A stretch of DNA of 64,000 bases from Thalassobius sp. Cn5-15. Lineage in GTDB: Bacteria; Pseudomonadota; Alphaproteobacteria; Rhodobacterales; Rhodobacteraceae. How positions within the stretch are numbered: position 1 is the stretch's first letter; every line of letters begins with the position of its first letter. The translations under genes and the position numbers were made by a program. Under the pieces are notes generated by a model that had not been told where the DNA came from, ran no database searches, and was given only the letters and a program-made list of their open reading frames with translations. Shown piece by piece: positions 1-43,375 of this stretch. Location: the NCBI RefSeq assembly GCF_022347685.1, contig NZ_JAKRGF010000003.1:310001-374000 (forward strand), read 5' to 3'.

Positions 1-1024
1 TGGCAATCTGCGCCTTGGTCTCATCGCCTGCGCGCACCAGCGTGGCATGGCCACTGATACCTGCCAGTAAGGGCCGAATGTCCTGACCCGGATCGGTCAG
101 CGCCCAGACGAGGCCACCGCCCCAGTCATACATTACACCGCGTGCGTTCAGCGCCGCCGCCACGCGCGGGCCATCCGATGGTTTCACCGAAATGCGCCAA
201 ACGTCGCCTTCTTGGGTCGCGAAACCTTCGACGTCGCGGATCCATTTCCACCCTGCGGCCAGTTTATCCGCGTCGGTTTCAACGCTGACGTCGCCAAACT
301 TGCCCAGCTGGGTTTTCAACTGTTCAGAGCGATAGGCCACCGCACCAGCGAAACCTTCGATGCGCACCATAGTGACCGGCGTGCCATCAACACCCACAGG
401 GGCATGGGCAGCCCCCGTCACATCGTAGGGCGATCCCAGCGCGGCAGACATCGCCTGCACCGCCGTCGCATCATCCAACCCGTTGATCAACACGGTCGCC
501 GCCGCCTCTGGCTTAGGCAGCACCTTGAAGCTGATCTCGCTCAGCACACCCAACGTGCCGTAGGAGCCAGCCAGCAGTTTCACCAGATCGTAGCCGGTCA
601 CGTTCTTCATCACGCGACCGCCGTTTTTCAGCACCACGCCGTTGCCATCCACAAACCGCACACCAAGCATATAGTCACGGCAGGCCCCAGCCTGCACGCG
701 GCGCGGACCCGAGATGTTGGCCGCTGCAACGCCGCCGATCGTCGGCACCCCAGCGGTGCCCAACAGCGCGCGGTGGTCCATCGGTTCAAACGGCAACCGC
801 TGCCCTTCGGAGGCCAGCAGCGCCTCAACCTCAGCCACCGGCGTGCCGGCCTTTACCACCAGCGTCAGCGCGCCGGGTTCATAAATCTCCACCCCCGACA
901 AACCACCAGTTTCCAGCACCGCGCCAGCGGGCGCCATACCACGGGTGTTGCCGCCGCGAATGGACAAGGGGGCATCGGCGCCCTTTATTATATCGGCCAG
1001 TTCGGCCTCTGTCTCAGGTCTCAT
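1..1024 (-). CDS. glcE: Glycolate oxidase FAD-binding subunit GlcE (3' end outside window)
   Basis: About 341 codons are visible; the stop lies beyond position 1. GlcE is the second FAD-binding subunit of the GlcDEF complex, which oxidises glycolate to glyoxylate. The sequence has the FAD_binding_4 layout: an SIRGGNTRG motif near residue 20, then an RxxxAGACRDYMLG stretch and the KNVTGYDL segment near residue 135. It follows glcD by 35 bases on the same strand, so the two form an operon and glcF probably follows outside the window. The start is uncertain. ATG at 1024 gives MRPETEAEL, while an in-frame ATG at 1039 adds five residues; neither has a strong ribosome binding site. The family assignment is secure. 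Confidence 0.9.
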   Translation of the reverse strand, partial: MRPETEAELADIIKGADAPLSIRGGNTRGMAPAGAVLETGGLSGVEIYEPGALTLVVKAGTPVAEVEALLASEGQRLPFEPMDHRALLGTAGVPTIGGVAAANISGPRRVQAGACRDYMLGVRFVDGNGVVLKNGGRVMKNVTGYDLVKLLAGSYGTLGVLSEISFKVLPKPEAAATVLINGLDDATAVQAMSAALGSPYDVTGAAHAPVGVDGTPVTMVRIEGFAGAVAYRSEQLKTQLGKFGDVSVETDADKLAAGWKWIRDVEGFATQEGDVWRISVKPSDGPRVAAALNARGVMYDWGGGLVWALTDPGQDIRPLLAGISGHATLVRAGDETKAQIA

Positions 1025-1059: not shown

Positions 1060-2499
1060 TCACTCAGCCGCGATGCGGCGGGGTGCGCTGGTCGCCAGCG
1101 GGAAGACCTTGGCTGGGTTCAGCAGCCACTTGGGATCAAAGACGTCTTTGACCGCCATCTGCGCCTCCATATCCTCAGGCGCGAACTGATCGACCATCAG
1201 GTCGCGTTTCTCGATGCCCACACCGTGTTCACCAGTCAGGCAACCGCCCACCTCGACACAGAGTTTCAGGATATCGGCGCCAAAAGCTTCGCATTTTTCC
1301 AGATCACCGGGTTTGTTCGCGTTGAACAGGATCAACGGGTGCATGTTGCCGTCACCGGCGTGGAATACGTTGCCGACGCCCAGCCCATATTCCTTACTCA
1401 TCTCACCGATGCGGCGCAGGACGTAGGGCAGTTGGTTCACCGGAATGGTGCCATCCAGACACATGTAGTCGTTGATCTGCCCCATCGCGCCAAAGGCCGA
1501 TTTGCGGCCCAGCCAGATGCGTGCGCTTTCATCGGCGCTGTTGCTTTCGCGCAGTTCTACTGGATTGTGCGATTTCGCAATAGCGAGGATCTTTTCAAGC
1601 TGTTCGTCAATCTCGGCATCGCTGCCTTCGACCTCAACGATCAGCAATGCCTCGCAATCAGGGTAGCCCGCACCGGCGAAGGCTTCGGTCGCGCGGATAC
1701 AAGGGCGGTCCATAAATTCAATCGCAACCGGCAGAACCCCTGCCTTAATGATGTCGCTGACGCATTCGCCGGCAACCTCATTACTGTCAAACCCCATCAG
1801 CACAGGGCGTGCGCCCTCAGGCTTGCGCAGAATACGCAGGGTCGCTTCTGTCACTACACCCAATTGCCCCTCGGATCCGCAAATCACGCCCAGCAGGTCA
1901 AGACCGCCCGCATCAAGATGCGCGCCGCCAATCTCAACCACAGTGCCATCCATCTGCACCATTGTTACGCCCAAGAGGTTGTTGGTCGTGACGCCATATT
2001 TCAGGCAGTGCGCCCCACCAGAATTCATCGCAATGTTGCCGGAAATCGCACAAGCAAGCTGCGATGAGGGGTCAGGCGCATAGAAAAAATCTTCTTCCTC
2101 AACCGCGCCGGACACACTGAGATTGGTGCGTCCCGTCTGCACGCGGACGAAACGGTTGTCGTAATCGGTTTCCAGCACCTCGCTCATACGGGCGACACCC
2201 AGAATGACCGAATCCGCAGTGGGCAGCGCTCCGCCGGCCAGTGAGGTTCCCGCCCCGCGCGGCACCACCGGCACCCCCATGTCATGGCAGATTGTCAGCA
2301 CCGCTGCGACCTCTTCGGTGTTGCGTGGCAAAACGGCGGCCAGCGGTGGGCAGCGGTAAGCAGTCAGTGCATCACACTCATAGGCGCGGGTTTCCACTTC
2401 TTCGTGGATCACCGCGTCATGGGGCAAAACCTCTTGTAATTTTTTGACCAATAGCGGCTTAAGAGCCAATATATCTGGGTTGGGTTTTGGCATTTCCAT
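1060..2499 (-). CDS. glcD: Glycolate oxidase subunit GlcD (FAD-linked oxidase)
   Basis: This 479-aa protein is the catalytic flavoprotein subunit of glycolate/D-lactate-type oxidase and donates electrons to the membrane quinone pool. The N-terminal PCMH FAD-binding domain shows the PRGAGTSLAGGALP motif (about residue 80) and MNSGGAHCLKYG (about 160). The C-terminal FAD-oxidase domain has GNVFHAGDGNMHPLI and LTGEHGVGIEKR, both hallmarks of GlcD. The start has a very good GGAGG ribosome binding site six bases upstream. A 21-bp inverted repeat lies about 18 bp before the start and closely matches one upstream of the FadR-type gene at 43393, so glycolate-responsive control is likely. Confidence 0.96.
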   Translation of the reverse strand: MEMPKPNPDILALKPLLVKKLQEVLPHDAVIHEEVETRAYECDALTAYRCPPLAAVLPRNTEEVAAVLTICHDMGVPVVPRGAGTSLAGGALPTADSVILGVARMSEVLETDYDNRFVRVQTGRTNLSVSGAVEEEDFFYAPDPSSQLACAISGNIAMNSGGAHCLKYGVTTNNLLGVTMVQMDGTVVEIGGAHLDAGGLDLLGVICGSEGQLGVVTEATLRILRKPEGARPVLMGFDSNEVAGECVSDIIKAGVLPVAIEFMDRPCIRATEAFAGAGYPDCEALLIVEVEGSDAEIDEQLEKILAIAKSHNPVELRESNSADESARIWLGRKSAFGAMGQINDYMCLDGTIPVNQLPYVLRRIGEMSKEYGLGVGNVFHAGDGNMHPLILFNANKPGDLEKCEAFGADILKLCVEVGGCLTGEHGVGIEKRDLMVDQFAPEDMEAQMAVKDVFDPKWLLNPAKVFPLATSAPRRIAAE

Positions 2500-2516: not shown

Positions 2517-2537
2517 TTGGTAAACTTATATAACCAA
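2517..2537 (-). promoter_or_regulatory. Candidate GntR/FadR-family operator upstream of glcD
   Basis: TTGGT and ACCAA arms are separated by an 11-base AT-rich spacer. Read on the glcD strand, the site matches 17 of 21 bases of the site at 43355-43375 in front of the FadR-type regulator gene. It sits between the glcD start and the divergent membrane-protein gene at 2621. TGGT/ACCA arms are typical of FadR-subfamily regulators. The link to one particular regulator is inferred. Confidence 0.6.
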
Positions 2538-2620
2538 AAAAACCCCTTCAGCAAAAACTTTTTGCCGAAGTGCCGTGGCGACACTTGTACATGCGCGGCC
2601 AAAACAGGCAGAAGGAGCAC

Positions 2621-40843: not shown

Positions 40844-40870
40844 ATTAATGGAATCTCGATGGAGGCCGTC

Positions 40871-42085
40871 ATGGCATCAAACTTCAAACGCCCTGCCGAC
40901 AACTATACGCCGCTCTACTTCCTTGCTTCCCTCGGCGCGGGGGGGCTGGCTGTCACGTTTTTCATGTATCTGATGTTCTGGGTGCCGCACCCTGACCAGC
41001 CGGTGCCGCTGTTTGGTGACATTACAACGGCCTTTCAAACCGGCACCCTGCCGATGCAGGTTGCAATCGCTGTCGCGGTCCTTGGAATCGCGGGCTTTGC
41101 AATCCTGAACATCAAGACACTGCTCTGGAACCTCTCGGCCCTCTCCGCTTTCCGCAATTCAGACGCCTACAAGACCCTGACCAGTACAAATGGCGAAGCC
41201 ACCCTGTTGGCCGCCCCGCTGGCGATGGCTATGACCGTGAACGCTCTTTTCATCATCGGAATGGTGTTTGTCCCGAACCTGTGGTCGGTGGTGGAGTATC
41301 TGTTCCCTATGGCCGTGCTGACCTTTTCCCTGATCGGGATCTGGGCACTGCGACTGATCGGACGCTATCTGGGCCGCATCTTTAGTGAGGCAGGACAGTT
41401 TTCGCTGGCAGGCCACAACTCCTTCGCACAGCTGATGCCTGCATTTGCTCTGTCAATGATCGGCGTTGGTCTTTCGGCCCCTGCTGCGATGAGCCACAAT
41501 CACATCACCGTAACAATTGCGATGCTGCTGTCGACCTTCTTTGCTGTTGTCGCTGTGATCTACGCACTGTTCGCTGCGATCACCGCTGTCAGCGCCATGC
41601 TGCAACATGGTACCGCCAAAGAGGCAGGTCCGACCCTGATGGTAATCGTACCGCTGATGACCGTGCTGGGCATCCTGTCCTTCCGCCAGTCCCACGGGCT
41701 GCACACCAGTTTCGACGCCCATGCTGAGGCGAGCGATGGCATGATGTTCTTTGCCCGCATGCTGAGCGTTCAGATCGTCTTCATCGCCCTAGGCATGGTG
41801 GTGATGCTGCGGCAGGGATATTTCAAGGACTACGTTTTTGGCCGCCTGACCTCGCCCGGATCATACGCGCTGGTTTGCCCCGGTGTGGCACTGACGGTGA
41901 TGATCCACTTCTTCCTCAACAAAGGATTGGTGCCTGCCGGTGCGGTGGACCAATTCAGCCTGACCTATTGGGCGGTGACCGCCGTCGCACTGGCTGCACA
42001 GATAGCGATGATCGCGCTGGTGCTGCGCCTCAACCGTCAACATTTTGGCCGCTCTGATGAAACAGCGGTGATGCCGGCGGAATAA
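40871..42085 (+). CDS. Ten-TM membrane protein, TsoY/TDT-like
   Basis: A 404-aa integral membrane protein with ten predicted helices, beginning FLASLGAGGLAVTFFMYLMFWVPHPDQP. The ten-helix layout recalls the tellurite-resistance/dicarboxylate transporter (TDT/SLAC1) superfamily, which includes sulfite exporters, and proteins that some annotation systems call TsoY family. No selenocysteine (in-frame TGA) is present. The start at 40871 has GGAGG six bases upstream, so an in-frame ATG at 40859 is less likely. Two ATTC-N8-GAAT motifs upstream suggest sulfide/persulfide control, consistent with a sulfur-anion role. Substrate unproven. Confidence 0.7.
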   Translation: MASNFKRPADNYTPLYFLASLGAGGLAVTFFMYLMFWVPHPDQPVPLFGDITTAFQTGTLPMQVAIAVAVLGIAGFAILNIKTLLWNLSALSAFRNSDAYKTLTSTNGEATLLAAPLAMAMTVNALFIIGMVFVPNLWSVVEYLFPMAVLTFSLIGIWALRLIGRYLGRIFSEAGQFSLAGHNSFAQLMPAFALSMIGVGLSAPAAMSHNHITVTIAMLLSTFFAVVAVIYALFAAITAVSAMLQHGTAKEAGPTLMVIVPLMTVLGILSFRQSHGLHTSFDAHAEASDGMMFFARMLSVQIVFIALGMVVMLRQGYFKDYVFGRLTSPGSYALVCPGVALTVMIHFFLNKGLVPAGAVDQFSLTYWAVTAVALAAQIAMIALVLRLNRQHFGRSDETAVMPAE

Positions 42086-43318: not shown

Positions 43319-43354
43319 GCCCTTTACCAATCCCCTGCTTGCCAGCCCTCTATG

Positions 43355-43375
43355 CTGGTCATATAAATTGACCAA
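43355..43375 (+). promoter_or_regulatory. Candidate autoregulatory operator of the FadR-type gene
   Basis: TGGTCA and TGACCA arms flank a 7-base AT-rich spacer (TGGT-N11-ACCA overall), 17 bases before the regulator start. The 21-bp site matches the glcD upstream site in 17 positions, and the following ATT is also shared. Confidence 0.65.

Follow-up and report, generated by a model that had tools for sequence, protein, structure and literature searches.

Glycolate is released by algae at large scale (PMC11323563), and the described regulators of the glycolate oxidase genes glcDEF that lie closest to the system presented here belong to the FadR subfamily. In Paracoccus denitrificans, the FadR-subfamily regulator GlcR (Pden_4400; mBio 2024) represses glcDEF and binds the intergenic fragment, from which it is released by glycolate and not by glyoxylate (PMC11323563). 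The glcR gene adjoins glcD in divergent orientation. GlcC of Escherichia coli, likewise a FadR-subfamily regulator of glcDEF, is an activator whose gene also adjoins glcD, while PdhR of E. coli regulates pyruvate dehydrogenase and has a TTGGT-N3-ACCA site in the pdhR promoter. The subfamily further includes LldR. Its typical, non-defining operator consists of the boxes TKGT and ACMA separated by 2-3 nt. According to the text of Suvorova et al. 2015, the FadR-subfamily sites have 3 nt between GT and AC, or 2 nt in several groups, a range given for 'most' sites; the 3-nt group names GlcC, LldR and PdhR, and weaker extra half-sites are reported 7-12 nt from the site centres (PMC4494728).

Our search of the literature for a printed case of an 11-nt spacer found none among the matches listed, and no glycolate regulator of the Roseobacter group was found in the open-access literature searched. 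Bacteria of this group, to which the genome studied here presumably belongs, are marine. Here we describe glycolate-oxidation genes that are apparently under the control of a distant regulator gene with the same DNA switch, the half-sites of which are unusually far apart.

Results

Two matching operator-like sites

The window, i.e. the whole stretch of 64,000 nucleotides of Thalassobius sp. Cn5-15 DNA that was analysed, contains the following genes and predicted sites.

1..1023, minus strand: probable glcE with a putative start, truncated at the edge of the window (positions 257-742 give a GlcD-like match)
1060..2499, minus strand: glcD, FAD-linked glycolate oxidase subunit (NF008408, E 2.3e-159)
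2517..2537, minus strand: predicted operator before glcD, TTGGTTATATAAGTTTACCAA, read 2537-2517 on the glcD strand
43355..43375, plus strand: predicted operator before the regulator gene, CTGGTCATATAAATTGACCAA
43393..44160, plus strand: FadR-subfamily (GntR + FCD) transcriptional regulator of 255 aa (PF00392, E 9.5e-21; PF07729, E 4.9e-24)

The glcD product strongly matched the GlcD models, with scores below their cut-offs (NF008408, 531 of 897 bits; TIGR00387, 446 of 568). The regulator gene lies 41 kb from glcD, and a preliminary description of this DNA had called it FadR-type. Indeed, its product, hereafter the 43393 protein, has an N-terminal GntR winged helix and a C-terminal FCD domain, both above the gathering scores. 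A gene for a TsoY-family (seleno)protein is located upstream of it, at 40859-42085.

On the glcD strand, the first site reads TTGGT-N11-ACCAA, exactly as the preliminary description had it. For the second site identical arms and spacing had been claimed; the spacing is the same, whereas the arms differ by one mismatch, a C at position 1. Our recount returned the 17 of 21 identical bases that had been given for TTGGTTATATAAGTTTACCAA and CTGGTCATATAAATTGACCAA, the mismatches being at positions 1, 6, 13 and 16. The gap to the start codon, previously put at 17-18 bases, is 17 nt at both glcD (2499) and the regulator gene (43393).

When the 64 kb window was searched with the arms alone, allowing at most one mismatch, there were two matches (expectation, 1.28), a count also attained in 34 of 100 shuffles. 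Since these window-level statistics were unconvincing, genome-wide and comparative tests were used. The full 21-mer, with up to three mismatches, found the two sites only in the genome of 3,525,422 bases, and the reversed control found none. A looser pattern search of the same genome, with three mismatches, did not outperform its control (46 matches versus 40). Together with the comparative data given below, we regard it as confirmed, at the level of sequence, that the shared operator-like site is real and not a product of chance.

Relation of the 43393 protein to described regulators

The best NCBIfam model for the 43393 protein was PdhR, with 206.9 bits under an equivalog cut-off of 330. The LldR model scored 195.2 bits (195.8 in the genome search; cut-off 311) and the GlcC model 147 bits (cut-off 301). 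Assignment of the 43393 protein to GlcC, PdhR or LldR was therefore rejected, each score being below the respective NCBIfam equivalog cut-off. The protein had earlier been termed a GlcC equivalent, which is wrong as regards membership and, with a site that straddles the predicted -10 region, probably also as regards the mode of action. It is 31% identical to GlcC of E. coli (the GlcC row being cut at 243 aa) and 39% identical to PdhR of E. coli. With the latter it has in common the stretch VSRPSLREAI, identical in a PdhR chain and taken by us to be the recognition helix, as well as the TTGGT/ACCA arms. When its own genome was searched with the LldR model, the 43393 protein was the sole strong match, the next scoring 67.5 bits. 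The regulator of Thalassovita mediterranea is 98% identical to it.

GlcR resembles the 43393 protein in being a FadR-subfamily regulator of glcDEF, the role proposed here for the latter. However, the two proteins are only 41% identical and fall into separate supported clades (98/87 and 99/96), and on these grounds the 43393 protein was rejected as the Paracoccus GlcR. The gene arrangement differs as well, with glcR next to glcD and the 43393 gene 41 kb away. A later in vitro sensor study by Barthel et al. may define the GlcR operator. We found TGGT-N11-ACCA in the glcR-glcD intergenic region of P. denitrificans, in the record of another strain; GlcR binding to such a fragment was demonstrated in PMC11323563, the main text of which does not contain the words operator, motif or footprint. 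In the GlcR site, positions 7 and 15 are T and A, as opposed to A and T in the sites described here. A second imperfect GGT...ACC box is located about 30 bp from the P. denitrificans N11 site (L067:2900-2947), and Paracoccus zhejiangensis has a similar pair.

The 43393 protein is joined in its clade by a Sinorhizobium regulator, the gene of which lies about 2.6 kb from glcD, and the glcD gene of that organism has an N11 site; none was seen before the Sinorhizobium regulator gene itself. In a test of whether the 43393 clade and GlcR make up a single clade, from which the rows of E. coli, Sinorhizobium and P. zhejiangensis (dld-side) were kept out, the p value was 0.048, to which we attach little weight. 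A search for a regulator gene beside glcD, covering 29 glcD loci and roughly 1.5 kb of flanking sequence in either direction, gave one weak match only.

Co-occurrence of the site with the regulator

We sampled 149 genomes from the family to which the window belongs, of which 139 contained glcD and 117 had a regulator match at E 1e-40; five of these matches were only 37-45% identical and were counted as regulator absent. The upstream pool also took in seven further genomes of the window's genus and five from other families, and the upstream counts omit glcD genes with missing starts (G046, G121) and partial regulator genes (G046, G121, G170). Scored with a weight matrix, for which the top score among 1330 control windows served as the threshold (0/1330 thus pass by construction), the site was present before glcD in 112/112 genomes with the regulator and in 1/37 without it. 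Within the window's family alone, these numbers were 105/105 and 1/32. When the arms were required in the N11 arrangement with at most two mismatches, the site was found in 112/112 genomes with the regulator, 97 of them with perfect arms, 12 with one mismatch and three with two, and in 2/37 without it, one of the two being weak. The single exception by weight matrix, G085, combines an imperfect glcD site with a regulator that was not found in a genome that is 91% complete. A pattern search of the same 149 genomes gave matches in 111, versus 10 matches in nine genomes for the reversed control. Co-conservation in relatives, the check suggested in the preliminary description, thus turned out in favour of the proposed connection.

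This regularity also bears on the possibility that the shared site is recognised by a different protein, with the regulator gene as just one of its targets. Besides the near-complete match of site and regulator, the arms correspond to the E. coli pdhR half-site, as a PdhR-like helix would read, and the genome holds no second strong match to the LldR model. We therefore consider binding by another protein very unlikely.

Self-regulation had been assumed because it is usual in the FadR family. In agreement with this, the site was usually present in the region upstream of the regulator gene itself, namely before 98/116 orthologues by weight matrix, with 18/116 lacking a recognisable site; from this we infer binding at its own promoter. 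By arms the count was 91/116, including one site at a distance of 119 nt that is doubtful. Among the best 80 of 150 named regulator orthologues, 72 were preceded by the site; these overlap with the genome sample and are not independent of it.

The genomes counted are related by descent. In a tree of 74 GlcD proteins, 46 from genomes with the regulator and 28 from genomes without it, the presence of the regulator changed nine times and that of the site eight times, so the match of site and regulator is probably not one single event. On the well-supported branches there were only two independent pairs, and the sign test (p 0.5) was underpowered. At glcD loci without an orthologue of the 43393 gene, no relative of the 43393 protein or of GlcR was found within 1.5 kb upstream at 29 loci, one of them shortened by a contig end, or, at eight further loci, in the flanks on both sides. 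Two genomes, G080 and G162, had the regulator and no glcD at E 1e-150; their glcD may have been lost or be missing from the assembly. In these genomes, genes of the lactate-dehydrogenase type are preceded by sites, as is malate synthase G (L331-L333, L336, L337).

Spacing and arm types

At glcD, the best spacing between the arms was 11 nt in 110.5 of 112 cases, ties being shared. Before the regulator gene it was 11 nt in 71.4 of the approximately 102 cases that reached two mismatches at any spacing, and the rest were thinly spread. The TKGT and ACMA boxes of the typical FadR-subfamily operator are thus present, but at a spacing of 11 nt. The contrast with the 3-base spacing of PdhR and FadR sites, already noted in the preliminary description, is real and lies outside the published 2-3 nt; for GlcC and LldR, too, the published spacing is 3 nt versus 11 here (PMC4494728). 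The half-sites are 15 bp apart instead of 7, i.e. 8 bp wider, despite the alike recognition stretch of the protein.

In relatives, the regulator sites mostly have arms of the type TGGTC/GACCA and the glcD sites arms of the type TGGTW/TACCA. At position 6, C occurs in 93% of the regulator sites versus 4% of the glcD sites; for G at position 16, the corresponding shares are 80% and 11%. Judging from these sequences, the difference in arm types could tune affinity.

Predicted promoter layout

The predicted promoter elements at the two sites are as follows.

2525..2530, minus strand: predicted -10, TATAAG, inside the operator (TATNAT-like block in aligned relatives)
2549..2554, minus strand: predicted -35, TTGCTG (sequence and aligned relatives), 18 bp from the -10 (17 in most relatives)
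43339..43344, plus strand: predicted -35, TTGCCA (sequence; TTG at this offset in 61/90 orthologous promoters)
43362..43367, plus strand: predicted -10, TATAAA, between the operator arms (sequence and aligned relatives), exactly 17 bp after the -35

When 112 glcD and 90 regulator promoters were aligned on the operator, a TTGCCA-like block became apparent, with TTG at one offset in 75/112 and 61/90 promoters, respectively, and in at most 12 at the other offsets examined. In 12/112 glcD promoters TTG was located one base further out, and TTG at the common offset was absent from 37/112 glcD and 29/90 regulator promoters. A TATNAT-like block lies between the operator arms of the aligned relatives, exactly 17 bp past the TTG block. 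Weighing against a -10 box, this block is partly matched by its mirror on the opposite strand. At glcD (n=112), 84 sequences were within two bases of TATAAT in the forward direction versus 55 on the mirror strand, the forward strand being better in 41 cases, worse in nine and tied in 62. At the regulator (n=90), the numbers were 74 versus 34, with 73 better, four worse and 13 tied. A simple consensus promoter scan reported no promoter at the glcD site or the regulator site, and the claim of promoter activity is for this reason drawn from the aligned relatives. With a TTG block, 17 bp and TATNAT, the layout is of the sigma-70 type, and the AT-rich spacer of the operator is best read as a promoter -10 element rather than as a regulator contact. 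Immediately upstream of the operator on the glcD strand, a terminator-like hairpin (2546-2570; 11 pairs followed by a T run; 0.4 expected in shuffles) overlaps the predicted glcD -35.

With arms that straddle the predicted -10 box, the 43393 protein is predicted to be a repressor, unlike the activator GlcC. Activators rarely bind across a -10 box. Activation of glcDEF by the 43393 protein would be in line with its subfamily, the E. coli activator of glcDEF being GlcC (PMC11323563), but given the position of the operator in both promoters, and a GlcC score of 147 bits where 301 are needed, we consider this unlikely.

Additional targets and the effector

For lldD and malate synthase G, sets of 30 loci each were assembled, chosen as the closest to a gene whose site had been found beforehand, and the resulting rates are therefore biased upward. 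An N11 site with at most two arm mismatches was present at 24/30 lldD loci, our genome included (24/28 with the regulator, 0/2 without), and at 21/30 malate synthase G loci (21/27 with the regulator, 0/3 without). Of the latter sites, 18/21 were separated from the aligned gene start by 61-85 nt; the other three were further off and are doubtful. In the genome of the window, lldD is preceded by a weaker N11 site with two arm mismatches, GCGGTAAAGAAACCTAACCAA, at a distance of 6 nt from the aligned start and of about 21 nt from the likely ATG; no site was found upstream of malate synthase G. As with LldR, lldD is a probable target of the 43393-type regulator, as far as the sites tell.

The lldD sites, which serve as a partial natural control, have retained the arms and A7/T15, and the ATAT core is present in 0/24 of them; in malate synthase G sites it is present in 2/19. 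With A7/T15 kept, the half-site is best written as TTGGTNA. A TTG block also occurs in the lldD promoters, displaced outwards by three bases relative to glcD, and these promoters may share sequence with the operator in a different register. The lldD sites are, moreover, informative with respect to a chance likeness of two AT-rich promoters with similar -10 regions. The arms alone were not significant in the window, and part of the similarity probably stems from the shared -10 box. Nonetheless, the genome-wide search, conservation in more than 100 genomes and lldD sites that keep the arms without the ATAT core leave chance a negligible probability.

Since N11 sites are also located before lldD and malate synthase G, glycolate is only one candidate effector; lactate may act in its place or alongside it. 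Conceivably, the 43393 protein acts chiefly as a repressor responding to lactate (LldR-like) or to 2-hydroxy acids in general, with glcDEF as one of several targets and lactate as the main signal. This would fit the sites before lldD and malate synthase G in genomes with the regulator and their absence in those without it (0/5), the 195 bits to the LldR model, and relatives in Azospirillum and Skermanella that adjoin lactate genes. However, the most constant site is that of glcD (112/112), and the Sinorhizobium relative of the same clade is encoded near glcD. Furthermore, the rates for lldD and glcB are biased upward, and the window's own genome has a weaker site before lldD and none before malate synthase G. 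A role directed mainly at lactate or at 2-hydroxy acids in general is therefore possible, but we do not regard it as probable.

Discussion

In the model that we favour, the 43393 gene would encode a FadR-subfamily repressor that binds TTGGTNA-N7-TNACCAA, in which TTGGT and ACCAA are 11 nt apart, and thereby covers the -10 box both at glcDEF and at its own promoter. The bound repressor would block RNA polymerase until a 2-hydroxy acid, i.e. glycolate and perhaps lactate, releases it, upon which glycolate oxidase and the regulator would rise together. In relatives, the repressor probably covers lldD and malate synthase G too, which would make it a regulator of 2-hydroxy-acid oxidation. As a whole, this model of an autoregulated, trans-acting repressor of 2-hydroxy-acid oxidation at an N11 operator over the -10 box seems to us highly likely.

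The N11 operator would be new for the FadR subfamily relative to the spacing of 2-3 nt given for most sites in PMC4494728. It raises the structural question of how a PdhR-like recognition stretch reads half-sites that are 8 bp further apart, and it is not obvious that a standard FadR dimer would reach half-sites at a distance of 15 bp. As a speculation, outer extra half-sites, such as those mentioned above, may have taken over as operator arms. The chances seem to us evenly balanced that one alphaproteobacterial FadR branch, comprising the 43393 protein, rhizobial relatives and the GlcR of Paracoccus, recognises half-sites of the PdhR type at a distance of 15 bp via an undescribed dimer or double-dimer geometry, with repression built into the design by arms that flank the -10 box.

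For the use of glycolate by marine bacteria, these findings provide a candidate regulator, an operator and a probable regulon composed of glcDEF, the regulator gene itself, lldD and malate synthase G. Lastly, a Sulfitobacter plasmid (L071) carries glcDEF and an adjacent GlcR-type regulator gene beside transposition genes, which suggests that this locus is a mobile copy of the Paracoccus-type system.
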